Of a DNA stretch of 64,000 bases, positions 16,358 through 56,275 are shown in pieces. This DNA is from Prevotella sp. (lineage in GTDB: Bacteria; Bacteroidota; Bacteroidia; Bacteroidales; Bacteroidaceae). Every line of letters begins with the position of its first letter. The stretch's first letter is position 1. The stretch lies in the NCBI GenBank assembly GCA_017617615.1, contig JAFZVV010000009.1:62001-126000 (forward strand). Direction: 5' to 3'. Position numbers and translations under genes: made by a program. The notes below the pieces were generated by a model that saw only the letters and a program-made list of their open reading frames with translations, was not told the DNA's origin and searched no databases.

Positions 16358-16587
16358 GAAGTTGGGATGCACCTTGGCAACGGAAGCAAAAAACTTTGCC
16401 TTTTGTTTCGCATTGCGCTCGGTTTTCACTAACTTTAGCTTCGCTGAAAGTACTCACATTCGGAAAAGCACAAATAAATCTAACCTTCGGTTGAATTTTG
16501 TCACGACTCAGCAAAGAATATGCAAGCATATCTTTGCATTCGCTGCTTCAAAATTTGGCTTTTCGCTCACTTAATCGTACCTTTGTC
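16358..16587 (+). repeat. Promoter-carrying intergenic repeat, copy A (upstream of metF)
   Basis: The first part (about 16358-16436) is a degenerate roughly 90-bp unit like those at 36.3-36.6 kb, with the shared pattern GGGATGC, AAAAAACTTTG and TTTCACTAACTTT. The second part (about 16437-16587) is a longer unit. Of its bases 16461-16563, about 99 of 103 match the reverse complement of 55987-56089 by eye. It contains an inverted repeat (16511-16537; GCAAAGAATATGC / GCATATCTTTGC) and ends in a full promoter reading into metF. Confidence 0.8.
16554..16586 (+). promoter_or_regulatory. metF promoter inside repeat copy A
   Basis: TTTG (16554-16557), a 20-nt spacer and TACCTTTG (16578-16585) make a consensus Bacteroidota promoter. 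The predicted start of transcription is near 16591, leaving a leader of only about 15 nt before the metF ATG. Confidence 0.8.
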
Positions 16588-16606
16588 CCCAAATAGACTA
16601 TTTTCA

Positions 16607-17566
16607 ATGAACATTGCCGATTTGCTGACCCATGGCGACGGAACGACACATTTCTCGTTCGAGGTGCTGCCCCCCCTGAAGGGCAACGGCACAGAGAGCC
16701 TTTTCCGCACCATTGAGAAGTTGTGTGACTTTGGTCCTGCCTATATCAATATCACTACCCATCATAGCGAGTACGTGTACAAGGAATTGCCCAACGGTCT
16801 CCTTGAACGCAGCCGTATCCGCCGTCGTCCCGGCACCATTGCCATTGCCGCTGCCATCCAGCAGCGTTTCCAGCTTCCGGTAATCCCCCACGTCATCTGC
16901 AGCGGCACGACGGTAGAGAACATCGAATACGAGTTGCTCGACCTGCAATTTCTCGGCATCAGCAACCTGCTGTTGCTTCGTGGCGACAAGGCCAGAGACG
17001 ACAAGGTGTTTGTAGCGACGCCCGGCGGCCATGCCCATACCACCGACCTGATAGCCCAGGTGACCCGCTTCAACGAAGGTTTCTTCGCCGACGGCACACC
17101 CATCAGTCGCCCCGGCGAGCCATTCTCCTTTGGCGTGGCCTGCTATCCCGAGAAACATGAGGAAGCGCCCAACCTGGAACAAGACATGGGACATCTGAAG
17201 ACAAAGCAAGACATGGGTGCACGCTATGCCGTGACACAGATGTTCTTCGACAACAAGAAATACTTCGATTTCGTGGCACGTGCCCGTGAGATGGGCATCA
17301 CCATCCCCATCATCCCTGGCATTAAACCGGTGACGAAACTCTCGCAAATCACGATGATTCCCAAGACCTTCCACTGCGACCTCCCCGACGACCTCGCCAA
17401 GGAGATGCTCCGCTGCAAGACCGATGACGATGTGCGCCAGGTGGGTGTGGAGTGGACGACAGCCCAGTGCCGCGACCTCTATGAGCATGGCGTAGGAAAC
17501 ATCCATTTCTACACCATCTCTGCCGTAGACTCGGTGCGTGAGATAGTTAAACGTATCAGATATTGA
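16607..17566 (+). CDS. metF: Methylenetetrahydrofolate reductase
   Basis: The 319-residue protein is a full-length MetF. It opens with the family pattern FSFEVLPPLKGNG and continues with ITTHHSEY, IPHVICSG, LLLRGD and FSFGVACYPEKHEEAPN. These belong to the TIM-barrel flavoprotein that reduces 5,10-methylene-THF to 5-methyl-THF for methionine synthesis. The ATG at 16607 gives the usual length. The frame is open upstream, but that part lies in the repeat element and is not conserved protein. The gene leads a set of closely packed genes (metF, holB, ricT, gldH). holB begins 10 nt after its stop. Confidence 0.95.
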   Translation: MNIADLLTHGDGTTHFSFEVLPPLKGNGTESLFRTIEKLCDFGPAYINITTHHSEYVYKELPNGLLERSRIRRRPGTIAIAAAIQQRFQLPVIPHVICSGTTVENIEYELLDLQFLGISNLLLLRGDKARDDKVFVATPGGHAHTTDLIAQVTRFNEGFFADGTPISRPGEPFSFGVACYPEKHEEAPNLEQDMGHLKTKQDMGARYAVTQMFFDNKKYFDFVARAREMGITIPIIPGIKPVTKLSQITMIPKTFHCDLPDDLAKEMLRCKTDDDVRQVGVEWTTAQCRDLYEHGVGNIHFYTISAVDSVREIVKRIRY

Positions 17567-17575
17567 CCCACTGCC

Positions 17576-18721
17576 ATGAGATTCGACGAAGTGATAGGGC
17601 ACGATGATGCCAAACTGCGGCTGAAGGCGATGGTAGAAGGCAACCACCTTCCCCATGCCCTGCTCTTCTGTGGTCCGATGGGCTGTGGCAAGATGGCGCT
17701 CGCCATGGCTTTCGCTTCCTATCTGCTCTGCCAGAGCCATAATGCTGATGACGACAGTTGTGGCAAGTGCCTGCAATGCGCGATGCTACGCAAATGGTCG
17801 CATCCCGACCTTCATTTCACCTACCCCACCATCAAACCTGCCAACAGTCCGTCGGACTACGTACCCATAAGCGATGATTTTGCCCGTGAATGGCACGAAC
17901 TGCTGGCCGATGGTCCGTATTTCACCATCGAGCAATGGCTCGACAAACTGGGTGCCACGTCGCAACAGGCCATCATTACGGCGAAAGAGAGCGACGAGGT
18001 AGCGCATAAACTCAGCATGAAATCGAGTCAGGGAGGCTACAAGGTGTCGCTCATCTGGCTTCCCGAGCGCATGAATGCTGCATCAGCCAACAAGTTGCTG
18101 AAGCTCATAGAGGAGCCTCCCTCGCAGACGGTGTTCCTTCTGGTGAGCGAAGCCCCTGATGAACTGCTGGAAACCATCAGGAGCCGAACACAGCGATTCG
18201 AACTTCGCCGCATCGACACCGAAGCGGTAGAAGAGGCCCTCGTATCACGCCGTGGAATCGACCCTGACTCCGCCCACCGCGTAGCACGCCTGTCGGGTGG
18301 TAGCTGGACCCAGGCCCTCGATGCCCTCGACGCGGAGAACGAGAGCCACCAGTTCCTCGCCGACTTCATCCAGATGAACCGCACGTCGTTCATGCGCAAC
18401 TTGCGTGCCCTCACCGACTGGTCGCTGTCGGTAAGCGGTTACGGCCGTGAGAAGCAGAAGCGGCTGCTGTCTTATTTCGTACGCATGACGCGTGAAAGTT
18501 TTGTATACAACTTCCACCAGCCCGAATTGTCGTACATGACGATGGAAGAAGAGCAGTTCGTGAAGAAATACGCTCCCTTCGTCAACGAGGCCAATGTCAT
18601 TGCCCTGTCGGAGTTGTATGCCACGGCTCGTCATGACATCGGCCGCAATGCCAATGCCAAAATCGTGTTCTTCGATGTAGCCCTCCAGGCATCGGTGCTG
18701 CTGAGAAGGAAACTCCAATAA
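17576..18721 (+). CDS. holB: DNA polymerase III delta' subunit
   Basis: The 381-residue AAA+ clamp-loader subunit opens with FDEVIGHDDAKLRL, followed by a Walker A GPMGCGK (33-39). Zinc-knuckle cysteines lie at 62, 65 and 68, with C52 as a possible fourth ligand. ANKLLKLIEEPP and RSRTQRFELR (SRC-like arginine region) are the conserved clamp-loader motifs. It would help load the sliding clamp in the gamma complex. Many delta' proteins are ATPase-inactive, but here the Walker A lysine is present. The order holB-ricT-gldH is a conserved Bacteroidota neighbourhood and supports the call. Confidence 0.9.
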   Translation: MRFDEVIGHDDAKLRLKAMVEGNHLPHALLFCGPMGCGKMALAMAFASYLLCQSHNADDDSCGKCLQCAMLRKWSHPDLHFTYPTIKPANSPSDYVPISDDFAREWHELLADGPYFTIEQWLDKLGATSQQAIITAKESDEVAHKLSMKSSQGGYKVSLIWLPERMNAASANKLLKLIEEPPSQTVFLLVSEAPDELLETIRSRTQRFELRRIDTEAVEEALVSRRGIDPDSAHRVARLSGGSWTQALDALDAENESHQFLADFIQMNRTSFMRNLRALTDWSLSVSGYGREKQKRLLSYFVRMTRESFVYNFHQPELSYMTMEEEQFVKKYAPFVNEANVIALSELYATARHDIGRNANAKIVFFDVALQASVLLRRKLQ

Positions 18722-18757
18722 CGTTCCGCCTTTGGCGGTATCAAAAAAGCAAAGAAG

Positions 18758-20116
18758 ATGGATTACAAGAATATGAAATTCAGGCTCAGCACCAGTTGTG
18801 ACAGAGGACTCTGCCGCAAAGGTGTGGGTCGCCAGGACAAACAACTCAACACCTACGACTGGCTGGCCGACGTTCCCGGCAACACAGAGAGCACCGACCT
18901 CGTGGAGGTGCAATTCAAGAACACCCGTAAAGGCTATTTCCACAATGTTAACCACCTGCCGCTTCAGAAAGGCGACATCGTGGCAGTGGAGGCCAATCCC
19001 GGCCACGACATCGGTGTGGTGACGCTTACGGGCGAGTTGGTGAAACTCCAGGTGAAGAAAGCCAACCTGAAGTCGTCGGAAGAAATCAGGCGCATCTACC
19101 GTCTTGCCAAGCCCGTCGACTTGGACAAGTACAAGGAAGCCAAGAGCCGTGAGCATGCCACGATGATCCAAAGCCGGCAGATAGCCAAGGACCTGAACCT
19201 TGACATGAAGATTGGCGATGTGGAATACCAAGGCGACGGCAACAAAGCCATCTTCTATTACATTGCCGACGAGCGCGTAGATTTCCGTCAGCTCATCAAG
19301 GTGCTCGCCGAGACGTTCCATGTACGCATTGAGATGAAGCAGATAGGTGCCCGTCAGGAGGCAGGCCGCATCGGCGGTACCGGTCCGTGCGGCCGTGAGT
19401 TGTGCTGCGCCACATGGATGAAGAACTTCATCAGCGTGAGCACCAATGCCGCCCGTTTCCAGGACATCTCCCTCAACCCCCAGAAACTGGCCGGCATGTG
19501 CGCGAAACTGAAGTGCTGCCTGAACTACGAGGTAGACAACTATATCGAAGCGAGCCGCCAGTTGCCTGGAAAAGACATCATCCTGCAGACCCAGGATGCC
19601 GACTACTATCTCTTCAAGACCGATATCCTTGCCGGCCTGCTCACCTACTCCACCGACAAGCGCACCGCTGCCAACCTGGAGACCATCTCTGCCGAGCGCG
19701 CGAAGGAGATTATCGAACTCAACAAGCAAGGCGAGAAACCCCTCATGCTGCAGGAGGATGGCCATCAGTCGAACGACCACCCCATCGACCTTCTCGAGGG
19801 CGAGAGCATTACCCGATTCGACAAGGCAAAGAAGAAGCGCAAGCGCAAGTACAAGGACAAGGACAACAAGGATGCTTCACCCATCAAGGGCAAGCCTGCC
19901 AATGAAACCAAACCTATCGAGCCCAAAGCCGATACCACGGTGAACAAGCCTGAAACCAAAGCCAAGAACAAGGTGAATGAGAAAGGCGACCGCAATGCCA
20001 ATGCTCCTGTCCGTGGCAACCGTCCCCAGCGTGCCGACCGCCGTCAGCGCCCGGGCAAAGGTCCCTCACACCCCCAGAACCGTGTCAACAAAGACAACAA
20101 CCCCGAACAACAATAA
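18758..20116 (+). CDS. ricT: PSP1-domain protein, RicT/YaaT homologue
   Basis: This 452-residue protein has a PSP1 C-terminal domain in its first two thirds. Conserved cysteine clusters are CDRGLCRKG near the N-terminus, GPCGRELCCATWM and CAKLKCC in the middle. In the family these cysteines bind iron-sulfur clusters, and the protein works with RicA/RicF in RNA maturation in Firmicutes. Its role in Bacteroidota is less clear. After about residue 350 the sequence becomes a long Lys/Pro/Asn-rich, probably disordered tail. The gene starts 36 nt after holB and ends 3 nt before gldH. Confidence 0.88.
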   Translation: MDYKNMKFRLSTSCDRGLCRKGVGRQDKQLNTYDWLADVPGNTESTDLVEVQFKNTRKGYFHNVNHLPLQKGDIVAVEANPGHDIGVVTLTGELVKLQVKKANLKSSEEIRRIYRLAKPVDLDKYKEAKSREHATMIQSRQIAKDLNLDMKIGDVEYQGDGNKAIFYYIADERVDFRQLIKVLAETFHVRIEMKQIGARQEAGRIGGTGPCGRELCCATWMKNFISVSTNAARFQDISLNPQKLAGMCAKLKCCLNYEVDNYIEASRQLPGKDIILQTQDADYYLFKTDILAGLLTYSTDKRTAANLETISAERAKEIIELNKQGEKPLMLQEDGHQSNDHPIDLLEGESITRFDKAKKKRKRKYKDKDNKDASPIKGKPANETKPIEPKADTTVNKPETKAKNKVNEKGDRNANAPVRGNRPQRADRRQRPGKGPSHPQNRVNKDNNPEQQ

Positions 20117-20119
20117 TCT

Positions 20120-20614
20120 ATGTTGTTTCCTCTCCGACGCAACATCATCACCATTACCGTCGCCATCCTTGTAGTGACGGTGGCTGTGTCGTGTTTCGAC
20201 CGCACCACATTCTTCCATTACCACGCCATCGACCTTGAGGGTTGGGAAAGGATGGATTTCAAGGAATACGAGATGAACGCTCTCGAAGAAGACGGCTACT
20301 ACGTGGAAGAGATAGGCGTGAGAACCACCACCACCTATCCTTTCAAGCGCCTGAACCTCATCGTGAAGCAAGACATCATCTCTACCACCAGTACCCACCC
20401 CAGCCGTTTCAGGTGCGACACCCTTTGCATCGACATCTATGACAGTTGGGGAAAACCCAAAGGCAAAGGCATCGACCTTTACCAACATGTCGTGCCGCTG
20501 AAGACACTGCCCTTGAAATCGGGCGACTCTCTCTCCGTGCGCATCGCCCACTGTATGACGACGTTCTCGGTGAAGGGTGTCAGCGACGTGGGGCTGAAGA
20601 TTACCCGCCAATAG
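20120..20614 (+). CDS. gldH: Gliding motility lipoprotein GldH homologue
   Basis: The 164-residue lipoprotein has lipobox AVSC with Cys25. The size, the lipid anchor and the position directly after ricT match GldH, as does the pattern TTTYPFKRLNLIV then CDTLCIDIYDSWGKPKGKG. GldH is needed for gliding in flavobacteria but is kept in non-gliding Bacteroidales such as this one, where its job is unknown. It starts 3 nt after the ricT stop, so translation is probably coupled. Confidence 0.85.
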   Translation: MLFPLRRNIITITVAILVVTVAVSCFDRTTFFHYHAIDLEGWERMDFKEYEMNALEEDGYYVEEIGVRTTTTYPFKRLNLIVKQDIISTTSTHPSRFRCDTLCIDIYDSWGKPKGKGIDLYQHVVPLKTLPLKSGDSLSVRIAHCMTTFSVKGVSDVGLKITRQ

Positions 20615-20678
20615 CTTTTTAGGATTTTAAGGACTTAAGGTCGTTATAGTCTTAAAGGACCTAATGACCGCCCCTGCC

Positions 20679-22148
20679 TCAGGTGCGGATGAGGTTGCGG
20701 CTTGCGTCGATTCTGAGGAAGATAAACAACAAGATGGTGAATCCCCACAACGAACTGCCTCCATAACTGAAGAAAGGCAGCGGGATTCCGATTACCGGTG
20801 TCAGTCCGAGCACCATTCCCACATTGATGAATACATGGAAGAGGAAGATACTGAGCACACAGTATCCATACACCCTTCCGAACTTGAATGGTTGCCGTTC
20901 GGCCAGTTTTATCAGTCGCAACACAAGGGCCAGGAACAAGAGTAGCACGCCCGCCGACCCCACGAATCCCTCTTCCTCACCCACGGTGCAGAAGATGAAG
21001 TCGGTGTCTTGCTCGGGCACGAACTTGAGTTTTGTCTGCGTGCCGTTGAGGAATCCCTTCCCCTTCAGTCCACCCGACCCGATGGCTATCACACTCTGAT
21101 GCACGTTGTATCCCGCTCCTGCCAGGTCGTCCTCGAGTCCGAGCAACACGTTGATACGCGTGCGTTGGTGCTCACCCAGCACGTCGTTGAGCACGATACT
21201 CGCCGAATAGAAGAAGATGATGGAGCCGAGCGAGAACAGCGCCACGTAGAGATAGTTGCTCACACGCGTGCTGAGTGCCTGGTACAAGTAATAACCGATG
21301 AGGGCGGCACACACGAGGAGTTGCACCCATACGATGTCGAACGGTATGACATATTCGGAGAAGAGGAGGAACACCATCGTCACCCCGAGCACGAATCCCA
21401 AGATATTGAGGGCTTTTGTCTTGTCATCGCAGTAGATACGCACCAAAGCCGCCGAGAACAACTGTATGAGGAGGAGCACCACGAATTTCCCCTCTGATGT
21501 GGGTGTATCCCAGAGCATCACCTGCTCATAGCGTATACCCACTACGAAATAGACCACCAGTGCCACACCAGTGAAGAGTATGCTCCCCGGCATACCCTCG
21601 CGGTAGAACATCAGGAAGAAGGCGAGATAGACCAGGGCCGACCCTGTCTCTTTCTGCATGATGATGAGCACCATGGGCAAGAGCACAATGGCACAGGAGA
21701 GCGCGAAGTCGCGCATACGGCGAATATTGAACCCATATGTACTCATGAACTTGCTGATGGCAAGCGCTGTGGCAAACTTGGCGAACTCTGCCGGCTGTAG
21801 CCTCAGCGGTCCCATGACTAGCCACGACCGCGAACCCTTTATCTCATGCGGATTAAAGATGGTGAGGAAGAGGAGCAGGAGCAAGCCCGCATAGAGCACA
21901 TACGCAAACGTGTCGTAATAGCGGTCGTCGAGCATGAGGAGCACGAAACCCAGGCATATCGACGTGGCAATCCACACCACCTGCATTCCCGAGCGCGTAG
22001 TGGTACTGAGGATATCCGGGTCGCTGAAAGAGTAGCTGGCTCCGCAGACACTCATCCATCCGAAGACGAGGAGTGCCACGTAGATGGCTATGGTCCACCA
22101 GTCGAGCGACCTGAGCACGCTATTCTGTCTATCTGTCCTTGGTTCCAT
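20679..22148 (-). CDS. rodA: Rod shape-determining protein RodA (SEDS glycosyltransferase)
   Basis: The 489-residue polytopic membrane protein has SEDS motifs. These include GSRSWLVMGPLRLQPAEFAK, VIAIGSGGLKGKGFLNGTQTKLKFVPEQDTDFIF and GIPLPFFSYGGSSL. RodA polymerises glycan strands with PBP2 in the elongasome. The extra central loop makes it longer than the Escherichia coli protein, which is usual in Bacteroidota. I chose ATG 22148 (MEPRTDRQNSVLRSLDWWT). The frame is open to 22238, but that part overlaps mrdA and looks non-native. The chosen start overlaps the end of mrdA by 20 nt. Confidence 0.94.
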   Translation of the reverse strand: MEPRTDRQNSVLRSLDWWTIAIYVALLVFGWMSVCGASYSFSDPDILSTTTRSGMQVVWIATSICLGFVLLMLDDRYYDTFAYVLYAGLLLLLFLTIFNPHEIKGSRSWLVMGPLRLQPAEFAKFATALAISKFMSTYGFNIRRMRDFALSCAIVLLPMVLIIMQKETGSALVYLAFFLMFYREGMPGSILFTGVALVVYFVVGIRYEQVMLWDTPTSEGKFVVLLLIQLFSAALVRIYCDDKTKALNILGFVLGVTMVFLLFSEYVIPFDIVWVQLLVCAALIGYYLYQALSTRVSNYLYVALFSLGSIIFFYSASIVLNDVLGEHQRTRINVLLGLEDDLAGAGYNVHQSVIAIGSGGLKGKGFLNGTQTKLKFVPEQDTDFIFCTVGEEEGFVGSAGVLLLFLALVLRLIKLAERQPFKFGRVYGYCVLSIFLFHVFINVGMVLGLTPVIGIPLPFFSYGGSSLWGFTILLFIFLRIDASRNLIRT

Positions 22149-23970
22149 ACTTGAGATGCTGGCTTTGTATCTGTGCGGCCTGTCGTTTGGAGCTTTCCGA
22201 GAGTTCGCCCTTGATATACTGTTCCATGATGAGTGCACCTATAGGCACGCCGAAGGTAGCACCGAATCCGCCATTCTCCACATACACGCTGACAGCGATT
22301 TTTGGCTCGTCCATCGGTGCGAATCCCATGAATACCGAGTGGTCGCGCCCACGGTTCTGTGCCGTTCCGGTCTTTCCACACACCTGATAGTCGCTGCGGT
22401 TGGCGCGCCGGCATGTACCACCGGTCACAGCCCGCCGCATTCCCCTTGCCACGAGGTCGTAGGCAGTCTTTGAGGCGAGCGTGTATTTCTTCTTTGTATA
22501 CAAGGTGTCGAGGGTTTGGCCTTCTATCTCCTTCACCACATGTGGGGTGATGTAGTATCCCCTATTGGCGATGGTGGCTCCCAGGTTGGCAATCTGCAGG
22601 GGTGTCAGCGTCACCTCTCCCTGTCCGATGGCGATGGAGATGACACCCAGCGCGTTCCAGTTGTTCTTGAAGGCCTTGTCGTAGAACGTGGCATTGGGAA
22701 TCATTCCCCGTTTCTCACCCGGCAGGTCGATGCCCAGCTTGTATCCGAATCCCATGCTCACCATATAGTCACGCCATTTGTCCATGGCATTCTGCAGCGT
22801 GCCGTATTTCTGCTTGTTGGTAAGCATGTAGTAGAGTCCCCAGCAGAAGAAGCCGTTGCACGACGTACCGATGGCGGGAATCAGGTTGAGGGGCGAGGGA
22901 TGTCCGTGGCATCCCACCCTCATGCCTTTGGTGACGAATCCCCTATAGCAGGGATACCTGGTGGTGGAGTCGATGATTTCCTCTGTGAGGAATGTGAGCG
23001 CCTGACTGGTCTTGAACGTGGAGCCCGGAGGATACTGTCCCATGATGGCACGGTTGAGCAGTGGCTTGAGCGGGTCTTTCGACAATGCGATATGGTTTTT
23101 TCCGCGCTGGCGGCCAATCATCATTCGTGGGTCGTAGGAAGGCGACGATACCATGCACAACACCTCGCCTGTAGCTGGCTCGATGGCCACGATGGCACCC
23201 AACTTCCCCTCCATGAGGCGTTCACCCAACCGCTGCAGTTCGATATCCACGCCCAGGGTGAGTGCCTTTCCCGGCACGGGTTTCGTGTCGAACTCCCCGT
23301 TGCGGTAACTTCCCTGGATACGTCCGCGTGCGTCGCGTAGCAGCACCTGCACGCCTTTCGTCCCCCTGAGTTCCTTTTCGTAGAACCGTTCTACACCTAT
23401 CTTCCCGATATAGTCACCAGGCTGGTAGTAGTCGTCTTCCTTGATGTCGTCGGGCGATACTTCCGCTACGTCGCCGAGGAGGAGTGCCCCGCTGGGGTAT
23501 TCATACTGCCGTATGCTTCGCCGCTGGATATAGAATCCCGGAAACTTGTAGGCTTTCTCCTGGAAGACGCTGAACTCCTGGTCGGAGAGTTGGGACATGA
23601 AGAGCTGTTGTGTGAAACTGGAATATCCCGGGGTATTCTGTATCTCCTTCATGCGCTTGACGAAGAAGTCTTTCGTGATATTGAGGGCATTGCAGAACTC
23701 CACGGTGTCGAGCCTTGACTTCTGTTCGCTGACAATGACCATGATGTCGTACGACGGCTGGTTGTACACCAGCAGTTTCCCGTTCCTGTCGGAGATGATT
23801 CCCCTTGAGGGGAACTCCACTTTCTTGAGGAAGGCGTTGCTATCGGCGTTTTTCTTGTAATCGTCGCTCATGATTTGCAAGACAAACAGGCGCACGATAT
23901 AGATGGCTACGATGGCGATGGCCACCCCAGCGATTACATATTGCCGTCTGTCAAGATCGTAGTCTTTCAT
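22129..23970 (-). CDS. mrdA: Penicillin-binding protein 2, elongasome transpeptidase
   Basis: The 613-residue class B PBP has an N-terminal membrane helix (about 9-32) and a dimerisation domain (SRGIISDRNGKLLVYN). In the transpeptidase domain the catalytic motif STFK places the nucleophile Ser at residue 317. The KTGT motif (KTGTAQN) lies near the C-terminus. It crosslinks peptidoglycan made by RodA. ATG 23970 is chosen over an upstream Met at 23991 because it places the charged MKDYDLDRRQ directly before the membrane helix. The gene lies between mreD (73 nt upstream) and rodA (20-nt overlap). Confidence 0.95.
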   Translation of the reverse strand: MKDYDLDRRQYVIAGVAIAIVAIYIVRLFVLQIMSDDYKKNADSNAFLKKVEFPSRGIISDRNGKLLVYNQPSYDIMVIVSEQKSRLDTVEFCNALNITKDFFVKRMKEIQNTPGYSSFTQQLFMSQLSDQEFSVFQEKAYKFPGFYIQRRSIRQYEYPSGALLLGDVAEVSPDDIKEDDYYQPGDYIGKIGVERFYEKELRGTKGVQVLLRDARGRIQGSYRNGEFDTKPVPGKALTLGVDIELQRLGERLMEGKLGAIVAIEPATGEVLCMVSSPSYDPRMMIGRQRGKNHIALSKDPLKPLLNRAIMGQYPPGSTFKTSQALTFLTEEIIDSTTRYPCYRGFVTKGMRVGCHGHPSPLNLIPAIGTSCNGFFCWGLYYMLTNKQKYGTLQNAMDKWRDYMVSMGFGYKLGIDLPGEKRGMIPNATFYDKAFKNNWNALGVISIAIGQGEVTLTPLQIANLGATIANRGYYITPHVVKEIEGQTLDTLYTKKKYTLASKTAYDLVARGMRRAVTGGTCRRANRSDYQVCGKTGTAQNRGRDHSVFMGFAPMDEPKIAVSVYVENGGFGATFGVPIGALIMEQYIKGELSESSKRQAAQIQSQHLKYGTKDR

Positions 23971-24043
23971 GAGCAGGAAAAACAAGTCCAATCAATAGTA
24001 TTACATCATCAGCCCTTTATAGGGCGCATTAGAGCAAGGCATG

Positions 24044-24550: not shown

Positions 24551-24553
24551 ATC

Positions 24554-27101: not shown

Positions 27102-27201
27102 TGTGTTTAAGAAATCTTTTGTATATAGAGTTTGCAAAGGTACGAAAAAATGGGTTCTTCGTAACATATTTGCCGCAAAATTTTATTTTTTTCCCCGATT
27201 A

Positions 27202-27233
27202 TTTGATTTATGTTATTTTTGTATTATTTTTGC
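27202..27233 (+). promoter_or_regulatory. purN promoter
   Basis: TTTG (27202-27205), a 19-nt spacer and TATTTTTG (27225-27232) fit the Bacteroidota consensus. The predicted leader to the purN ATG is about 75 nt. Confidence 0.7.
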
Positions 27234-36246: not shown

Positions 36247-36299
36247 AATATTTCTTCTTTTTTTCTTGTGTCGAACTATTTTTGCTCCATTTGGTCTCT

Positions 36300-36598
36300 G
36301 GCCTAAATGTAGAATGACTTCGGGATCAACGGTAGTTGTTCGCGAAGTGAGGTTAAGCAAAAGCAAACAAAAAAACTTCGTTATTTATTTGGTTTTTCAC
36401 TCGCCTTTCACTATATCTGGCCTTCGGCCGAATATAGGATGCGCCTCGGAAATCCAGATAAAAAAACTTTGTCTTTTATTTGGTATTTCACTCAGCTTTC
36501 ACTATATTTGCCACTGCGAACATAGGATGCGGCTCGACAATGAAAACAAAAAACACTGTCTTTTGTTTTGCATTGTGCTCGCCTTTCACTATATTTGC
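36300..36598 (+). repeat. Promoter-carrying intergenic repeat, copy D: three tandem units
   Basis: Three imperfect direct units end near 36419, 36510 and 36597. Units 2 and 3 are about 92 and 87 bp. Each shares an opening like CGAAnATAGGATGCGnCTCG, a middle A-rich AAAAAACTTTGTCTTTT-like run, and an end CTTTCACTATATTTGCC. Each unit contains a TTTG-N19/20-TATATnTG promoter (36388-36419, 36479-36510, 36567-36597) pointing at the gene at 36656. Unit 1 has the weaker -7 TATATCTG. The first unit of copy A (16358-16436) is homologous. There is no gene in 36197-36655. Confidence 0.8.
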
Positions 36599-36655: not shown

Positions 36656-37054
36656 ATGAAAAAACAACAAATCGATATAGAACACAGCCTCAGGTCAACC
36701 TCTCCCAACATTATCTGGAGAATCATCAGCACTGAAGGCGGTTTAGGCAAATGGCTTGCCGACGAGGTGAAAGCCAAAGACGACAAGTTCTTCTTCACAT
36801 GGGGCGACGAATGGAGTCACCATGAGAAACGTTGCGCCAACACATTGGAGCGCGTGCGCCACAGCCATATCCGCCTGCGCTGGGACGATGAGACAGACCC
36901 CGATGCATATCTGGAACTGCGCATGGTGCACAATGAGATGACCGACGGCTTCAGCCTTCACGTGACCGACTTCGCGCTCCCCGAAGACCTCGACAGCCTC
37001 TACGACATCTGGGAGCAGAATTTCGACCAGCTCCGCCAGGCCACAGGTCTCTGA
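36656..37054 (+). CDS. START-like domain protein (SRPBCC fold)
   Basis: The 132-residue protein matches the small Bacteroidota START-like family. It opens MKKQQIDIEHSLRSTSPNIIWRIIST and has the helix-grip pattern TWGDEWSHHEKRCANTLERVRHSHIRLRW, VHNEMTDGFSLHVTDFALPEDL and a C-terminal helix. Such proteins usually sit just before an LptF/LptG-type permease gene, as here. A lipid-handling role is plausible but unproven. The frame is open upstream to 36233, but that part is translated repeat DNA. ATG 36656 begins the conserved protein. Confidence 0.85.
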   Translation: MKKQQIDIEHSLRSTSPNIIWRIISTEGGLGKWLADEVKAKDDKFFFTWGDEWSHHEKRCANTLERVRHSHIRLRWDDETDPDAYLELRMVHNEMTDGFSLHVTDFALPEDLDSLYDIWEQNFDQLRQATGL

Positions 37055-47450: not shown

Positions 47451-47478
47451 AAATCCCCAGCCCGACGGCTGGGGATTT
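47451..47478 (+). terminator. Intrinsic terminator of the Ton operon
   Basis: AAATCCCCAGCC (47451-47462) pairs perfectly with GGCTGGGGATTT (47467-47478) around a CGAC loop and is followed by a T run. Confidence 0.92.
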
Positions 47479-47914: not shown

Positions 47915-48092
47915 AATTCAAAATATTTTCGTTAATACTATTTTCTAATATAGGACGTACCTATTTTTAATCGCTGCAAAGATACATTTTTATTCTCATA
48001 TACCTACAATTAGGTAGGGAATTTTTTACTATTTAGATATTATCAAAATAAGGGCAAATGCAATAACGTTGGACAAACGCCGTTATTATAAT

Positions 48093-48839: not shown

Positions 48840-48896
48840 GTTTTTTTCAATACAGCGAGACAGAGGGGCGGGGAAAATGTGAGCCGCTGTACGAAC

Positions 48897-49739: not shown

Positions 49740-49743
49740 TTCC

Positions 49744-50508
49744 TTATTCCTCCACTATTATCCGTCCTTCCACAGCGCTCTCCACCAACTGTCCGGCAGC
49801 AGTGCGCTCCTTGATGTATTTCATCATCAGTTCACGTGTTAGTGCATCGTCCGAAGGGATAATCCTCACGTCGGTGCTACTCTTGAAAGCCACCATCCCG
49901 TTGTTGCCTTGCGAGACATAGTCGACTGTCGCCACACGGTAGGATGCTGTAGGGTCGATTTCCCTCCCTCCGATGGTGGCATGCCTGAGCTGGCGGTTGG
50001 CCGTGATTACCATACGCACTTCCCGGCTTACTCCCTCGCCTCCCCTACTGGCAATCTGGCTCATCAGTTCGAGCACTTTCTCGCCAGAGAGGGTAAGGAA
50101 ACACACCTTGTTCTCGAAAGGTGCCACGCTGTACACATCACCAATGGTGATGTCACCCTGTGCCAGTGAGGCCCTTATCCCCCCGAGATTGTATATGCCG
50201 AAATCAGGTTTCTCACCATAGAATTTACCCGACCACACCAGCACGTCGGGCAGCAGGTTACCCAAAGGACTCTCAGGGCGCTCCACAGTCAAGGGAAAAG
50301 GCGTCCGCCCCAGCACCGACGACATCAGCTCGCCAACCTTCGTCATGTACGGATCCATGAAACTCGCCACCTCAGCAGACATGGGCTTGTCGTACGACTT
50401 ATCCACCAACAAGCGTGTGCGTGTGACTTGACTTACGGCATAGTGCGTGGTACATGCCGATAAAGCCATGACCGCCACCATTACCAAAAACAAAGACTTC
50501 AATCTCAT
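49744..50508 (-). CDS. 5'-nucleotidase C-terminal domain lipoprotein
   Basis: The 254-residue lipoprotein has lipobox LSAC (Cys19). The 5'-nucleotidase C-terminal domain is clear: ESPLGNLLPDVLVW, DFGIYNLGGIRASLAQGDITIGDVYSVAPFENKVCFLTLSGEKVLELMSQIASRGGEGVS, YRVATVDYVSQGNNG. The metallophosphatase N-domain comes from the next gene, so the usual domain order is reversed in the operon. ATG 50508 begins the lipoprotein signal. The frame is open to 50616 but that is upstream DNA. Confidence 0.9.
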   Translation of the reverse strand: MRLKSLFLVMVAVMALSACTTHYAVSQVTRTRLLVDKSYDKPMSAEVASFMDPYMTKVGELMSSVLGRTPFPLTVERPESPLGNLLPDVLVWSGKFYGEKPDFGIYNLGGIRASLAQGDITIGDVYSVAPFENKVCFLTLSGEKVLELMSQIASRGGEGVSREVRMVITANRQLRHATIGGREIDPTASYRVATVDYVSQGNNGMVAFKSSTDVRIIPSDDALTRELMMKYIKERTAAGQLVESAVEGRIIVEE

Positions 50509-50626
50509 AGGAAAATGTTTTTGCGAAAATACGCATTTTTCCACGAAGTAAGCGGCATGGAGCGTAAAAAAATCGCTGTCGGGAAAAAATATTCCCCTTA
50601 AGTGTCTGTAAATCAAAAAAAAGTAT

Positions 50627-50635
50627 TACCTTTGC
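50627..50635 (+). promoter_or_regulatory. Probable -7 box of rplS
   Basis: TACCTTTGC (50627-50635) matches the consensus. The nearest -33-like element is TCTG at 50605-50608 with an 18-nt spacer. The leader of about 85 nt before rplS could hold a regulatory structure, but none is obvious. Confidence 0.5.
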
Positions 50636-50725
50636 ACCGCTTTTCCGCGTAATCGCTGACAGGAAGAAGAGTAGCCTAGTTATGTTGCGTGCGAAATGAC
50701 AACCAATATTTAACAGTTAAGCACA

Positions 50726-51091
50726 ATGGATTTAATTAAAGTTGCTGAAGAAGCATTTGCTACTGGCAATCAGTTCCCGGAGTTTCATCCTGGCGACACC
50801 ATCACCGTGGCCTACAAGATTATTGAGGGAAACAAGGAGCGTATCCAGCTCTACCGTGGTGTGGTAATCCGCATTTCCGGTCATGGCGACAAGAAGCGTT
50901 TCACCGTCCGCAAGATGTCGGGCACTGTAGGTGTGGAGCGTATCTTCCCCATCGAATCACCCAACATCGCCAGCATCGAGGTGAACAAACGCGGTAAGGT
51001 GCGTCGCGCCAAGCTGTATTACCTGCGCAAGCTCACTGGCAAGAAGGCCCGCATCAAGGAGAAGAGAACTCCCATGCAGCCGAAGGCTTAA
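50726..51091 (+). CDS. rplS: Ribosomal protein bL19
   Basis: The 121-residue protein is a standard bL19. It has [33 protein letters not shown], the [47 protein letters not shown] block, and a basic tail. It lies at the subunit interface of the ribosome. A strong terminator follows at 51147, so it is probably monocistronic. Confidence 0.98.
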
Positions 51092-51146
51092 TCACCGGTC
51101 ATTCGCCATCGCTCTTTCCGAAGCCCGGCGATTGTCCATCAGAAAT

Positions 51147-51176
51147 AAAGGGGTTTCACATGCTGAAACCCCTTTT
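51147..51176 (+). terminator. Intrinsic terminator after rplS
   Basis: AAAGGGGTTTCA (51147-51158) pairs with TGAAACCCCTTT (51164-51175) around a 5-nt loop, with further T residues after. Confidence 0.9.
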
Positions 51177-51227
51177 CTGTTTTCATTATCCGATTATCCA
51201 CGTCAAACCAACCATACCCAAACCATC

Positions 51228-52409
51228 ATGAAAGAGTTAGCATTGAAATATGGTTGCAACCCCAACCAGAAACCCTCACGTATCTTCATGGAAGAGGGCG
51301 AATTGCCCCTTGAAGTACTCAACGGCCGTCCTGGCTACATCAATTTCCTCGATGCCCTGAACAGCTGGCAGCTGGTGAAGGAGATGAAGCAAGCCACCGG
51401 CCTGCCCTCCGCTGCCAGTTTCAAGCACGTGTCGCCCGCCGGTGCCGCTGTGGGACTTCCCCTGAGCGATACACTAAAGAAGGTGTATTTCGTCGACGAC
51501 ATCCGCGAGGAACTCTCTCCCATCGCCTGTGCCTATGCCCGTGCCCGTGGTGCCGACCGCATGAGCAGTTACGGCGACTTCGTGGCACTGAGCGACACCT
51601 GTGATGCCGTCACCGCCACACTCTTGAAACGTGAGGTGAGCGATGGTGTCATTGCCCCCGACTACACCCCCGAGGCGTTGGAAATTCTGCGTGCCAAGCG
51701 CAAGGGCACCTACAATGTCATCAAGATAGCCCCCACCTACCAGCCCGCTCCCATCGAGCGCAAGCAAGTGTTCGGCATCACCTTCGAGCAGGGGCGCAAC
51801 GAGATACGCCTCGACGACCCTGCGCTGTTTGAGAATATCCCCACGCAGTGCAAGACCTTCACCGACGAGGCCCGCCGCGACCTCATCATCGCCCTTATCA
51901 CGCTGAAATACACACAGAGCAACAGCGTGTGCTATGTAAAGGACGGTCAGGCCATCGGCATCGGTGCCGGCCAGCAGAGCCGCATCCACTGCACCCGTCT
52001 CGCCGGCAACAAGGCCGATATCTGGTGGCTTCGCCAGCATCCGAAGGTGATGGGTCTGCCCTTCGTCCCCGGCATCCGCCGTGCCGACCGCGACAACACC
52101 ATCGATGTGTATATCAGCGAAGACCATGACGACGTGCTCCGCGACGGCACCTGGCAACAGTTCTTCACCGAGCGCCCCGAGGTACTCACCCTGGAGGAGA
52201 AGAAAGCCTGGATAGCACAGAACACGAAGGTTTCCTTGGGCAGTGATGCCTTCTTCCCCTTCGGCGACAACATCGAACGTGCCCACAAGAGCGGGGTGGA
52301 GTATATCGCCCAGGCTGGCGGTTCGGTGCGCGATGACAACGTGATAGAGACCTGCGACAAATACGGTATCGCCATGGCATTCATCGGCGTGCGTCTGTTC
52401 CACCATTAA
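51228..52409 (+). CDS. AICAR formyltransferase domain of PurH as a stand-alone protein
   Basis: The 393-residue protein matches the transformylase half of PurH: LALKYGCNPNQKPSRIF, GYINFLDALNSWQLVKEM, AASFKHVSPAGAAVG, CAYARARGADRMSSYGDFVALSD, LKYTQSNSVCYVKDGQAIGIGAGQQSRIHCTRLAGNKAD, KVSLGSDAFFPFGDNI and IAQAGGSVRDD. It converts AICAR to formyl-AICAR. The cyclohydrolase half is encoded separately at 26505. ATG 51228 is chosen because the frame upstream runs through the rplS terminator. Confidence 0.93.
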   Translation: MKELALKYGCNPNQKPSRIFMEEGELPLEVLNGRPGYINFLDALNSWQLVKEMKQATGLPSAASFKHVSPAGAAVGLPLSDTLKKVYFVDDIREELSPIACAYARARGADRMSSYGDFVALSDTCDAVTATLLKREVSDGVIAPDYTPEALEILRAKRKGTYNVIKIAPTYQPAPIERKQVFGITFEQGRNEIRLDDPALFENIPTQCKTFTDEARRDLIIALITLKYTQSNSVCYVKDGQAIGIGAGQQSRIHCTRLAGNKADIWWLRQHPKVMGLPFVPGIRRADRDNTIDVYISEDHDDVLRDGTWQQFFTERPEVLTLEEKKAWIAQNTKVSLGSDAFFPFGDNIERAHKSGVEYIAQAGGSVRDDNVIETCDKYGIAMAFIGVRLFHH

Positions 52410-52421
52410 TGCGCCATCGTC

Positions 52422-52622
52422 ATGAGTAAAGGCGACGATATTGACAGCATCATCCAGGAAGGCATCGTCTGGGGACGTGGCGCCAGGAACGAGGCGCCCA
52501 AGAGCCAGAAGACCAAGACGAAGGCCAAGAAAAAGGCCTACATCACCGGAGCCCATGGCAGCGGTAGCGCCCGACAGAAAGCCAAATATCGTGCTGCGCG
52601 CGCGAATCGGCATAAGAAATGA
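52422..52622 (+). CDS. Small basic protein of unknown function (66 aa)
   Basis: The 66-residue frame follows the AICAR transformylase by 12 nt. It starts with an acidic stretch (MSKGDDIDSIIQEGIVWG) and becomes strongly basic (KTKTKAKKKAYITG, ARQKAKYRAARANRHKK). This charge pattern suggests binding to nucleic acid or ribosome. A hairpin terminator follows 6 nt after the stop, which supports a real gene. I recognise no family. Confidence 0.55.
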   Translation: MSKGDDIDSIIQEGIVWGRGARNEAPKSQKTKTKAKKKAYITGAHGSGSARQKAKYRAARANRHKK

Positions 52623-52628
52623 AAAATC

Positions 52629-52663
52629 AATCCCCTTTCCTCCATGCGGAGAGAAAGGGGATT
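52629..52663. terminator. Terminator between convergent genes
   Basis: AATCCCCTTTC (52629-52639) pairs with GAAAGGGGATT (52653-52663), with an inner CTCC/GGAG stem. It lies between the 66-aa gene and the minus-strand pgeF stop and can serve both. Confidence 0.85.
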
Positions 52664-52693
52664 TACTTTTCTATGGGGTTACGAAAATTTCTC

Positions 52694-53476
52694 CTACCTG
52701 ACCATCATTCCCGAGAAGATGCGACCAGAGTCGACACCCATGCGGCGTGCGGAGAAGAAGTCGTGATGGTGGGTATAGGTACAGATGCCGGCAACGTGGA
52801 TATGGGCCTCGGGCACGCCCATCTCCATGAGTTGGATTCGGTTGCACTCCCAGAGGTCGATGTGCCATTTCCCGTATCTGCGAGCGATATGCTGCATATC
52901 GAAGTCAGCCTGCACGAACAGCTCGTATACCTCGTCGCCTACCTCGAAACACTCCAAGGAGATGCCTGGGCCGATGACCGCCTGGAGTTGCTGGGATGAC
53001 GTACCATAAGCCTGTGCCATAGAAACCATCGCCTTTTGCACGATGCGCTTTGCCGTCCCCCGCCATCCCGCATGTACGGCACAGCAAGCGTGGTGCGCAG
53101 CATCGTAGAGCAACACGGGGATACAGTCGGCAGTGGAGACGCCGATGCACACACCGACGAGGTCGGTCATCACGGCATCCTTTCCCTCCAGACTGAAAAA
53201 CTTCTCTGCCGGACTCAACGACTCCAGCCATTGCCTGTCGATGGTTTCCACCTTGTCGCCGTGAACCTGATGGGGATAAACAAGATGATACCTGTCTACA
53301 CCCAACAACTGGCACAACGCCTCGCGGTTGGCCTCGATGTCGTCGGGATTGTCGCCACAATAGTAATTGATGTTGAACGACGCGTAGTTGCCTTTCCCCA
53401 CCCCACCATGGCGGGTGGTGCTGAAGGCCATTACCCCCGGCCCCATGTCATACTCGTGAAGAACAGGCTGTATCAT
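52694..53476 (-). CDS. pgeF: Peptidoglycan editing factor / laccase-domain protein
   Basis: The 260-residue DUF152/YfiH-type protein has [44 protein letters not shown] and [31 protein letters not shown] follows, and [11 protein letters not shown] is at the end. The Cys and His residues of these motifs bind zinc or copper. The family removes misincorporated L-Ser from peptidoglycan precursors and also has purine nucleoside phosphorylase-like activity. Its ATG overlaps the obgE stop by 4 nt (ATGA). Confidence 0.93.
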
Positions 53477-54633
53477 TGTTCGTCTTCGTATTCGAAATCG
53501 TCGAGAAGTTCGATGTCATCCTCGTCCACCATTTCGATGCTGCCGTCCTCGCCCTCGTCCTGCATCTCCAGGACAAAGCGAGACATGTCCTTGTCACGGT
53601 GCACCAGTGTATCCTCCGACATGATGTTCTGCAGTTTGTTACTTTCGCTGTTGAGCTCTGTCCACAGTACGTTTTTCAGTTCCTCCAGCCCCTGTCCGGT
53701 GACCGACGAGATGAACACCACCTGCACGCCATCGGGCAGCGTGTCGCGCAACATGTCGATGAGTTCGTCGTCGAGCAGGTCGCATTTCGTCACCGCCAGC
53801 ACACGGTGCTTGTCGAGCATTTCGGGATTGAACTTCCCCAGTTCGTTGAGCAGCACCTCATACTCGTGTTTGATGTCGTCGGTATCGCCTGGCACCATGA
53901 ACAACAGGAGCGAGTTGCGCTCGATATGACGGAGGAAGCGCAGTCCCAGTCCCTTTCCTTCACTTGCCCCCTCGATGATGCCCGGAATGTCTGCCATCAC
54001 GAACGACTGGCGGTCATGGTAGCCCACGATGCCCAGTGACGGCTCAAGCGTGGTAAAGGGATAGTTGGCGATTTTCGGACGTGCACTCGAGAGTGCGGAG
54101 AGCAGTGTCGACTTCCCCGCATTGGGGAATCCCACCAGTCCCACGTCGGCGAGGAGTTTCAGTTCGAGTATCACTGTCATCTCCTGCATCGGCTCTCCCG
54201 GCTGCGCGTATTTCGGTGCCTGGTTCGTGGCCGAGCGGAACTGAAAGTTGCCCAGTCCACCGCGCCCGCCCTTGAGCAGGCACACCACCTGTCCGTCGTA
54301 CGACACGTCGCACACGAATTTCCCCGTCTCAGCATTATACACCACAGTGCCACATGGCACGTCGATATACTCGTCCTTTCCTTTTGAGCCATGGCATTTG
54401 TCACGCCCGCCGTTACCTCCATGCTGTGCGAACACATGCCGCTGGTACTTCAGGTGGAGCAATGTCCAGAAGTTATGGTTACCTCGGAGATAGACACTTC
54501 CGCCATCCCCTCCGTCACCCCCGTCGGGACCGCCATTAGGGTTGTATTTCACATGTTTCAGGTGCATGGACCCCCTGCCACCCTTTCCTGAGCGGCAGCA
54601 GATCTTTACATAGTCTACAAAATTCGATTCCAT
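53473..54633 (-). CDS. obgE: GTPase Obg
   Basis: The 386-residue protein has the glycine-rich Obg domain ([35 protein letters not shown]). The G domain has GFPNAGKST (G1), [11 protein letters not shown] (G2), [16 protein letters not shown] (G3) and TKCD (G4). The acidic tail ends in many Asp/Glu. It takes part in 50S assembly and stringent response. ATG 54633 begins [11 protein letters not shown]. The frame is open to 54777, but that region is intergenic. It sits between hpt-adk and pgeF in a conserved minus-strand order. Confidence 0.95.
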
Positions 54634-54808
54634 TGTTATTCCGGCCCTCGGCCGATTGATAATTATGCGTTGCTTGAATGTCGGTTGCGCCTCAGCATAC
54701 CAAGAGCAAGCATTTGCCTGCATTCTGCCTGCACGACATTCCCTTACCCATCCCTGGTTTGCGCCATGGATGGGCAAGGCTTCAATAATGAATCTTCACG
54801 AATGTGAA
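54634..54808. repeat. Intergenic region with a possible eroded repeat copy
   Basis: Bases about 54660-54765 weakly resemble the promoter-carrying repeat on the plus strand (GGTTGCGCCTCAGCATACCA, then GCATTCTGCCTGCACGACATT where intact units have GCATTGTGCTCGCCTTTCACTATATT). The -7 box is lost. I am unsure this is homology rather than chance. Confidence 0.25.
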
Positions 54809-55942
54809 TCAGATGGCATCGATGACCGCGCAGATGTCGGCGAAGATACGGTCGAGTGCGCCGAGCCCGTTGATAGGCTTGCGCAATCCCTCCTTCTCAT
54901 ACCAGTCGATGAGCGGTGAGGTCTGGCTGTGATACACATCGAGGCGTTTCTTGATGGTCTCCTCGTTGTCGTCGCTCCGTCCGCTCTCGAGTCCCCTCTT
55001 CACCAATCGTGTCATGAGTTCCTCCTCGGGCACGTCGAGTTCTATCATCGCAGCCACCTCATGTCCACGTTCGGCGAGCATCTTCTTCAGCGCCTCTGCC
55101 TGTGGCACCGTACGGGGGAAGCCATCGAAGATGACACCCTGGTGGTCGCTGCCATAACTGTCGTATACCTTTGCCAGCATGTCGATGATGAGGCTGTCGG
55201 GCACCAGTTTTCCCTCGTCGATATACTGTCGTGCCGTCTGTCCGAGCGGTGTCCCGTTCTTCATCTCGCTGCGCAGCACGTCGCCAGTAGAAATATGGTT
55301 AAGTCCATACTTCTCGATGATGAGGTCGCTCTGTGTTCCTTTTCCCGAACCCGGAGCACCGAAAATCACGATATTCTTCATCTTGTTTGTATTTGTAGTT
55401 GTTTCTTCTGGGATAAGCGTATAGATGTCTTTCAGGCCACGTCCCTGCTGGTCGTAGTCGAGTCCATAGCCCAGGACAAAATCATTGGGGATGGAGAAGG
55501 CCACATAATCCACATTGATGTCTTCTTTCAGCCGGTCGGGTTTCATGAGCAAGGCACAGACATGCACCGACTCGGGGTTGCGTGTTCCCAGCGATTCCAT
55601 CATCTGCTTGATGGTGAGTCCCGACTCCACGATATCCTCGACGATGATGATGGTGCGGCCAGCCAGGTTCTCATTGATGCCAATCACCTCCTTCACTTTT
55701 CCTGTAGAGGTAGTGCCCTGATAGGAAGCCAATTTCACGAATGAAATCTCACAAGGGATAGTGAGTTCACGCATGAGGTCGGCAGCAAAGATGAAAGCCC
55801 CGTTGAGTACCGCCAAGAACAGTGGGTTTTTCCCCTCCATGTCTTTGTTGAGTTGGTCGGCCACGGCCTTTATTCTCTGCTTGATCACTTCTTCGGGGAT
55901 AGACACCTCGAAGGTTTTGTCTTTGATAGTTACTGTTTTCAT
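54809..55942 (-). CDS. hpt-adk: Fused hypoxanthine phosphoribosyltransferase - adenylate kinase
   Basis: One open frame of 377 residues joins two enzymes. Residues 1-180 are a hypoxanthine PRTase (LAVLNGAFIFAADLMREL, SYQGTTSTGKVKEV, PRPP loop IIIVEDIVESGLTI, FVLGYGLDYDQQGR). Residues 188-377 are a short-LID adenylate kinase (P-loop GAPGSGKGTQ, HISTGDVLRSEM, GVIFDGFPRT, KRGLESGRSDDNEETIKKRL). The linker is only about ETTTNTNK. An in-frame ATG (55381) would make a 190-residue stand-alone Adk, so internal initiation is possible. Separate hpt and adk genes before obgE are the arrangement I would expect. The promoter lies inside repeat copy B. Confidence 0.92.
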   Translation of the reverse strand: MKTVTIKDKTFEVSIPEEVIKQRIKAVADQLNKDMEGKNPLFLAVLNGAFIFAADLMRELTIPCEISFVKLASYQGTTSTGKVKEVIGINENLAGRTIIIVEDIVESGLTIKQMMESLGTRNPESVHVCALLMKPDRLKEDINVDYVAFSIPNDFVLGYGLDYDQQGRGLKDIYTLIPEETTTNTNKMKNIVIFGAPGSGKGTQSDLIIEKYGLNHISTGDVLRSEMKNGTPLGQTARQYIDEGKLVPDSLIIDMLAKVYDSYGSDHQGVIFDGFPRTVPQAEALKKMLAERGHEVAAMIELDVPEEELMTRLVKRGLESGRSDDNEETIKKRLDVYHSQTSPLIDWYEKEGLRKPINGLGALDRIFADICAVIDAI

Positions 55943-55963
55943 AGTCTTTGCTGTTTCTTTGCA

Positions 55964-56115
55964 GCAAAGTTACGAAAAGTCGAGAGAAAAGCCAAATTTT
56001 GGAACAGCGAATGCAAAGATATGCTTGCATATTCTTTGCTGAGTCGTGACAAAATTCAACCGAAGGTTAAATTTATTTGTGCATTTCCGAGACGGAGTAA
56101 CTTCGGCGAAGCCAG
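55964..56115 (-). repeat. Promoter-carrying intergenic repeat, copy B (facing hpt-adk)
   Basis: On the minus strand this copy matches repeat copy A. Bases 55987-56089 correspond to 16461-16563 with about 4 mismatches in 103 by eye. It contains the same inverted repeat (56013-56039) and ends in a promoter toward hpt-adk: TTTG (55996-55993), a 20-nt spacer, TAACTTTG (55972-55965). The last 25 bp differ from copy A, but the promoter elements and spacing are kept. Confidence 0.82.
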
Positions 56116-56204
56116 AGTTACTATTATGTGAACAAAAAGGATATTTATCCGCATTTTTTCTTGTCCAAATGAAAGGAACAGCATTGTGAAACGATATAGT
56201 TGGT

Positions 56205-56275
56205 ATAGACGTTCGGAAAAGAAACAAAAACTTTGAGTTTTGCTTTGCTTTTCGCTCACTTAATCGTAATTTTGT
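56205..56275 (+). repeat. Promoter-carrying intergenic repeat, copy C (facing nnr)
   Basis: A shorter unit on the plus strand shares TTCGGAAAAG, an AACAAAAACTTTG run, and the end TTTTCGCTCACTTAATCGTA with copy A. It contains TTTG (56244-56247), a 19-nt spacer and TAATTTTG (56267-56274). It lies back-to-back with copy B, so the two divergent genes each receive a repeat-borne promoter. Confidence 0.75.

Follow-up and report, generated by a model that had tools for sequence, protein, structure and literature searches.

Short repeats lie in three intergenic regions of the stretch of Prevotella sp. DNA studied here (contig JAFZVV010000009.1; 64,000 nucleotides, hereafter the window), namely ahead of metF, ahead of a START-like gene and between hpt-adk and nnr, and they are real and part of a large family in rumen Prevotella-like genomes. 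They are probably best read as a dispersing, tandemly amplifying family of non-coding promoter cassettes, i.e. units in which a whole core promoter of the sigma-ABfr type would be contained within one foldable hairpin. According to this reading the units would have come to occupy the promoter position of numerous unrelated genes, each joining at an existing -7 box or immediately downstream of it and so becoming flanked by two -7-like boxes; the gene-proximal box would be retained and serve the gene, and units would multiply in tandem, each after a -7 box. At the level of sequence, the architecture and covariation of the units, their copy number, their orientation and their presence or absence at orthologous promoters could be documented, and from the comparisons among genomes we infer that the repeats are mobile, that is, that units move beyond what precise loss or conversion alone would yield. 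The terminal (gene-proximal) box is the one predicted to drive transcription, and the folding back of single-stranded DNA on itself, or the formation of a cruciform, would matter for the spread.

If the units do move, core promoters of essential genes in the rumen group, among them those for tRNA ligases, DNA polymerase and primase, the signal recognition particle (SRP) and the synthesis of 3-deoxy-D-manno-octulosonate (KDO) and amino acids, would repeatedly have been replaced by a repeat family, and the number and variant of the units at a gene would act as a fast-evolving dial of its expression.

Architecture of the units

The sigma-ABfr promoter is described as TAnnTTTG at -7 with TTTG near -33 (PMC7366714). 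Transcription from such a promoter is expected to begin about 7 nt after the box. A first-pass annotation of the window had listed six units that keep TTTG-N19/20-TAnnTTTG, and the exact pattern is present in five of these, i.e. at 16554-16585(+), 36479-36510(+), 36567-36597(+), 56244-56274(+) and 55965-55996(-), whereas the sixth (36359-36419) terminates in TATATCTG. The -7 boxes do differ among the units, as that annotation had said, and the related repeats are present at all three loci it had named; an additional degenerate unit, at 16356-16437 and terminating in TAACTTTA, lies beyond its six. The whole window holds 11 promoter patterns, 5 of them within units, as compared with a mean of 0.34 and a maximum of 2 in 50 dinucleotide shuffles; the six outside units are presumably ordinary promoters. 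Among 45 representatives, for which TAnnTTTG was required by the pattern, the TTTG is found 19 or 20 nt ahead of the -7 box in 36.

A unit measures about 65-100 bp and forms a single imperfect inverted repeat, in the order CGAAnnTAC, spacer, CTCGG, inner stem, CTCnnTTnnnCG and TAnnTTTG. The upstream arm CGAAnnTAC pairs with the -7 box in GTAnnTTTG to give an outer stem, and the inner stem holds the -33 TTTG. In the alignment of 12 units from which a covariance model (R1) was built, both stems covary and the CTC in the spacer is invariant; the stem letters vary with the pairing preserved, which indicates that structure and not sequence is conserved. When structures were sought without assuming that the nn positions pair, 88 were found, as against 0.67 per block-shuffled set. 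In 67 of these 88 (shuffle mean 22.5, maximum 36) the nn of the arm is complementary to that of the terminal -7 box, and in the regions of the closest relative (G001) alone this holds for 25 of 26 (mean 8, maximum 17); both counts take the units of one array separately and therefore do not represent independent events. In 19 cases the boxes on the two sides of a unit differ, and there the arm goes with the terminal box in 17 and with the upstream box in 2. An initial view of two separate hairpins, one at the tandem junction and an inner one, on which R1 had been based, was replaced by the outer stem because the junction arm follows the terminal -7 box and not the adjacent one. A candidate set of 86 was likewise dropped: 10 of the 86 matched (shuffle mean 2.2), and 8 of these 10 were tandem neighbours.

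The boxes themselves were compared in 60 arrays that meet the patterns; a junction was scored in 56 of these, and duplicates, pattern failures and arrays containing N were excluded. All 60 terminal boxes, which had been pre-selected by a looser pattern, read TAnnTTTG, as compared with 37 of the 56 upstream boxes, so that the gene-proximal promoter looks more constrained. With any base allowed, the third T of the -7 box faces a G in 88 of 100 cases, and the antisense box then reads TAnnTTCG; this G would spoil a reverse promoter while nearly preserving the stem. Folded as DNA, the representatives have a median z of -2.85, with 33 of 45 below -2 and the outer stem closed in the best fold of 30 of 45.

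The near-identity that had been reported between 16461-16563 and the complement of 55987-56089 amounts to exactly 99 of 103 bases, and with longer arms (16430-16585 and 55965-56120) the complementarity is 87% across 156 nt. It had been taken for similarity of the promoter repeats, but 74 bp of it (16482-16555 and 55995-56068) is a separate nested repeat of about 75 bp (AACCTTCGGTTG...CAAAATT) that sits in the AAATAAATTT loop of both window units. In related genomes this nested repeat occurs within or beside the same loop at several loci (L081, L082, L103 and others), at L092 also, and sometimes in tandem. Its plan is a similar double hairpin, but with AAATTT-like ends in place of the -7 boxes. 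The region 36300-36598 has a single plus-strand R1 match (36412-36510, E 6e-6) and belongs to the family more for its architecture than for its sequence; the second metF unit is matched by R1 at 16430-16500 and 16533-16585.

Size and distribution of the family

The nearest relative among 80 loci returned is a rumen Prevotellaceae metagenome-assembled genome (MAG; locus L001), with 92% protein identity at hpt-adk and 76-92% DNA identity to the window in aligned blocks. The suggested count of further copies was made in the relatives, and there the family is large. BLAST with one unit gave 3-50 matches in each of 11 related genomes, many of them in arrays with a tandem period near 73-76 nt, and R1 matched all 11 with at least 31-126 copies each (E<=1e-3), these counts being lower bounds since at most 150 candidates were scored per genome. 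At E<=1e-5, R1 matches were found in 28 of 39 genomes of a genus sample (0-93 each, with 11 of the 39 having none) and, with stricter filters and 30 candidates per genome, in 81 of 151 genomes of a family sample. A phylum sample of 198 genomes (E<=1e-5, stricter filters, 23 candidates per genome) gave no R1 match beyond the query genome, and this nearly empty sample doubles as a control for false matches; G001 was included in all three samples. Among 12 further hand-chosen genomes 8 had at least one R1 match, with 44 in Candidatus Equimonas faecalis; two other named genomes searched, those of Palleniella muris and Xylanibacter rarus, gave 4 and 2 matches.

Units also occur on a plasmid record of another genus and on a viral contig. 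The plasmid record OY725997.1 (Phocaeicola massiliensis) carries one (L211, 3973-4053; 89.5% over 57 nt) about 20 nt ahead of the ATG of a putative gene, with a hairpin core that, judged by eye, is the same as that of rumen units of G002. A viral contig from IMG/VR carries one complete unit with the exact pattern (L209, 7165-7247, minus strand) and a weaker match at 193-278; phage records searched with one unit as the query gave no match.

Four MAG contigs (G001:C80, G388:C16, G383:C56 and G003:C209) have units at a distance of about 350 bases or less from one of their ends, which would be the outcome if assembly from short reads broke at the repeats. Given units at such contig ends, short-read genomes probably undercount the repeats.

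Genomic position and downstream genes

The setting of the units was read in 60 regions of up to 10 kb, chosen from high-scoring R1 places (G001 20, G383 16, G388 16, G002 5, G004 3), with open reading frames (ORFs) from our own caller and no curated annotation. Of 65 arrays, 1 lies inside an ORF. The remaining 64 comprise 59 that lead into a gene on their own strand, 4 that face a gene of opposite direction and 1 for which no gene was mapped. The expectation that copies lie upstream of genes in one orientation is thus borne out by 59 of the 63 arrays with a mapped downstream gene. The last -7 box precedes the start codon by a median of 27 nt, and by 100 nt or less in 56 of the 59. Because a divergent gap gives a gene-facing array for either orientation, two further counts are cleaner: between co-directional genes 23 arrays run with and 2 against the gene direction (binomial p 2e-5 versus one half), and there are 34 arrays in divergent gaps and 1 in a convergent gap (binomial p 2e-9 versus one half).

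Of the downstream genes 30 were scanned, 20 of G001 and 10 of G383. Eight of the 20 in G001 pass a curated NCBIfam cut-off, namely those for glutamine-tRNA ligase, dihydroxy-acid dehydratase, leucine-tRNA ligase, KDO-8-P synthase, DNA polymerase III alpha, dapA, RlmN and DnaG, and 7 of the 20 have no match at 1e-10; the Pfam matches in G383 include SRP54, ribosomal protein S16, a tRNA methyltransferase and DXP synthase. The genes are mixed, with many housekeeping functions, and do not look like one functional regulon. In the window, Pfam agrees with the assignments made earlier for metF, START-like, hpt-adk and nnr; the suggested co-regulation of these targets is not supported, the driven genes being unrelated.

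Orthologous promoters with and without units

The gain or loss of units at orthologous sites was read by eye from printed flanks. Orthologs of the START-like gene are present in 7 of 8 related genomes; G002 has two units and G003 one, and no units are seen in 460 printed bases of G001, G004, G006, G008 and G009. The promoter of G001 reads TTTTTTTGC-TATATTTG-CCACATC, and that of the window reads TATTTTTGC-TCCATTTG, three units, and then TATATTTG-CCACATC, so that its units are flanked by two copies of the -7 box and its terminal box equals the native box of G001. At other loci a -7 box on both sides is suggested by eye. Orthologs of metF are found in all 8 related genomes: the window, G002, G003 and G004 carry units of different kinds, no units are seen in 380 printed bases of G001, G005, G006, G008 and G009, and the native box of G001 (TACCTTTG) is again the terminal box of the window. 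Between hpt and nnr, where 36 of the 80 loci were printed, a short unit-free gap prevails, with units in L001, L002, L003, L005, L012 and L014 and a 22-bp remnant in L006. Three processes could contribute to these differences: units may be gained, they may be precisely lost, and their hairpin core may be replaced.

In the nnr/hpt gap of G001 (L001, 9568-9980) about five units stand in opposed orientations between the divergent genes, with a near-perfect palindrome at their meeting point.

The sequences at L185, L184 and L199 pointed to a target-site duplication of 12-16 bp, but this did not hold in general. By eye, the bases after the first box and those after the array match at a few loci (L199 hpt, L185 and L184 metF, window 36503), but among 91 arrays, 60 of them with a junction (arrays with N, duplicates and pattern failures excluded), such a match occurs in 0 of 60.

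Weighing the explanations

The earlier proposal of a mobile or recombining repeat that delivers promoters is partly supported, namely for delivery, by copy number, by position and orientation, by unit-free orthologous promoters in near kin and by the patchy distribution among congeners, and also by the single copies found on a viral contig and on a plasmid record from a different genus. Several observations weigh against the reading as dispersing promoter cassettes. No transposase or recombinase was found that would serve as the mover among the Y1, ISL3 and reverse transcriptase (RT) families tried; there is no general target duplication at the 60 junctions; a box on both sides is clear at the START-like locus only, which lowers our confidence; the START-like pattern, with units in the window, G002 and G003 and none in G001, fits precise loss in G001 equally well; and the left flank of the window at metF does not align cleanly with the native promoter of G001. 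The arm of the plasmid unit fits its left box (TATATTTG) better than its terminal box (TAACTTTG), the fold z is not below -2 in 12 of 45 representatives, and the minimum free energy fold leaves the outer stem unclosed in 15 of 45. The separate counting of array units, noted above, belongs with these points.

An explanation without transposition is possible but in our view unlikely; under it, old promoters would have been duplicated in tandem by slippage between -7 boxes and homogenised by gene conversion across loci, hairpin-templated repair matching the arms. Tandem arrays are common, the unit-free START-like site of G001 is the expected product of recombination between flanking -7 boxes, the hpt hairpin core differs between the window and G002/G003 with both flanks retained, as under conversion, and hairpin repair would explain matched arms without selection. 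Nevertheless, similar hairpin cores recur at many unrelated loci within a genome, the genus sample is uneven (none in 11 of 39 genomes, up to 93 in others), the Phocaeicola plasmid record and the rumen genomes have a common core, and most relatives printed lack units at the three loci. The pairing of arm and -7 box may come from selection on the DNA hairpin, from an insertion guide or as a by-product of repair. The complementarity invites a model like that of IS200/IS605, although hairpin-templated repair could also produce it: in a self-targeting promoter element the upstream arm would act as the guide and pair with the -7 box of a promoter to be targeted, perhaps while the open complex or a replication template exposes that box as a single strand, and the unit would be joined there. 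Since its own end is again a -7 box, each insertion would make a new promoter and a new target, from which tandem growth would follow, and the nested repeat, which has ends of AAATTT type and lies in an AAATTT loop, would be its sibling and use a different guide. This proposal, which requires no known transposase family, is tentative and we regard it as doubtful.

Movement of a non-autonomous IS200/IS605- or REP-type element by a Y1 (HUH) transposase is improbable. The units do resemble IS200/IS605 in the hairpins close to their ends, in their tandem growth and in a junction 3' of a short, fixed site to which one arm is complementary. Atypical Bacteroidetes secondary structures near subclass 2.6 genes have also been reported (PMC6006769), but Y1_Tnp (PF01797) does not track the units. 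Among the draft genomes, it was matched in 5 of the 17 that have 20 units or more and in 5 of the 11 that have none. The three genomes richest in units within the genus sample (G388, G001 and G383) gave no match, an absence that is not certain because these are drafts. GTAG/CTAC and CGTC/GACG are each present in just 5 of the 45 representatives, anywhere and on either strand. Neither ISL3 (PF01610; 4 of 17 and 4 of 11), whose members make 8-bp target duplications, nor the reverse transcriptases (PF00078; 4 of 17 and 5 of 11) track the units any better, so that a parent element with a transposase did not emerge from the three families tried, no search for a parent by its ends having been made. 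We find it no more credible that the repeats are operators of one regulator, their similarity being selected and not spread: operators usually are palindromes overlapping promoters, and the invariant CTC would suit one, but the stem letters vary while the pairing stays, the targets are mixed and often housekeeping, and 11 of 39 congeners are without an R1 match. Least of all do we expect that the repeats act in RNA, as leaders, terminators or riboswitches transcribed from promoters further upstream. Transcription that began upstream within an array would indeed carry the next hairpin into RNA, but the terminal unit precedes the start predicted for it and thus falls outside the mRNA of that gene, and no Rfam covariance model matches the units, the window giving one tRNA only and eight sampled unit loci nothing at the gathering score.

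Comparison with known systems

Taken as dispersing promoter cassettes, the units have the terminal inverted repeats of a miniature inverted-repeat transposable element (MITE), in that the arm CGAAnnTAC covaries with GTAnnTTTG; with regard to target duplication, a -7-like box stands on both sides at the START-like locus and 0 of 60 junctions share the bases that follow. The nearest described system we met is the BrickBuilt MITE of Porphyromonas gingivalis (PMC4596501), which is likewise intergenic, tandem, promoter-bearing, bounded by inverted repeats and found in Bacteroidales, with filled and empty sites; one BrickBuilt element abuts argS, and the BrickBuilt ends (GAGACCTTTGCA) also hold CCTTTG. 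It differs in having 23-nt bricks between a leader and a tail, 12-bp ends of IS5 type, 19 copies in one strain, a range of P. gingivalis and P. gulae, and promoter activity in both directions (PMC4596501), whereas the present family has units of 65-100 bp with the core promoter inside stems and one predicted direction, occurs in at least 31-126 copies in related genomes and is spread across the family sample. Its arrays have periods of about 73-91 nt with no leader or tail seen, and no 12-bp IS5-type terminal inverted repeats were noticed on reading the printed units, no alignment search having been made for them. The same paper uses the term 'putative mobile promoters' (PMC4596501), which suits promoters that spread as repeats; the present family differs by its defined foldable architecture and an apparent preference for -7 boxes. 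A search of the open-access literature, by titles and openings of abstracts, found no paper on that term and no description of this repeat family.

Correia elements of Neisseria are also short promoter-carrying repeats just upstream of genes (review PMC10969869), but in another phylum; the comparison covers their position and their promoters. The REP/REPIN sequences with TnpA-REP share the high-copy intergenic hairpins and possibly a single-strand basis (PMC6006769, PMC3733652), but the present family has no consistent GTAG/CGTC tag and is not tracked by Y1, and its hairpin contains the promoter. With the guide-target pairing of IS200/IS605 the units would share the joining 3' of a short site able to pair with an internal arm, with the difference that the most unit-rich genomes of the genus sample gave no Y1_Tnp match. 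The attC site of integrons is a folded single-strand site used by the integron integrase, which the units resemble in layout only. Intergenic TAACTGA repeats reportedly occur in Beggiatoaceae.

Features of the window

Table 1. Units, nested repeats and predicted driven genes (positions in the window)
Feature	Position	Strand	Remarks
metF locus, unit 1 (degenerate)	16356..16437	+	arm CCGAAGTT, hairpin, end box TAACTTTA; no exact promoter
metF locus, unit 2	16443..16585	+	arm, hairpin with nested repeat; -33 TTTG 16554-16557; -7 TACCTTTG 16578-16585
Nested palindromic repeat (~75 bp), hairpin loop of metF unit 2	16482..16555	+	copies also in related genomes
metF (MTHFR), predicted driven gene	16607..17566	+	PF02219
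TCCATTTG, probable left relic of native -7 box	36286..36293	+	unit-free ortholog L191 has TATATTTG
START-like locus, unit 1	36309..36419	+	end box TATATCTG
START-like locus, unit 2	36420..36510	+	-33 TTTG 36479; -7 TATATTTG 36503-36510
START-like locus, unit 3 (predicted gene-proximal promoter)	36511..36597	+	-33 TTTG 36567; -7 TATATTTG 36590-36597
START-like gene, predicted driven gene	36656..37054	+	PF19569
hpt-adk fusion, predicted driven gene	54809..55942	-	PF00156, PF00406
hpt-adk unit	55965..56120	-	left box TAACTCTG 56113-56120; arm CGAAGTTAC; hairpin with nested repeat; -7 TAACTTTG 55965-55972
Nested palindromic repeat (~75 bp), hairpin loop of hpt-adk unit	55995..56068	-	
nnr unit	56205..56274	+	no clear upstream arm; -33 TTTG 56244; -7 TAATTTTG 56267-56274
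nnr (YjeF N-terminal and NAD(P)HX dehydratase domains), predicted driven gene	56283..57803	+	Pfam

Elsewhere in the window, a weak R1 match (27135-27215, minus strand, E 0.063) overlaps an unrelated promoter-like pattern on the opposite strand (27202-27232).

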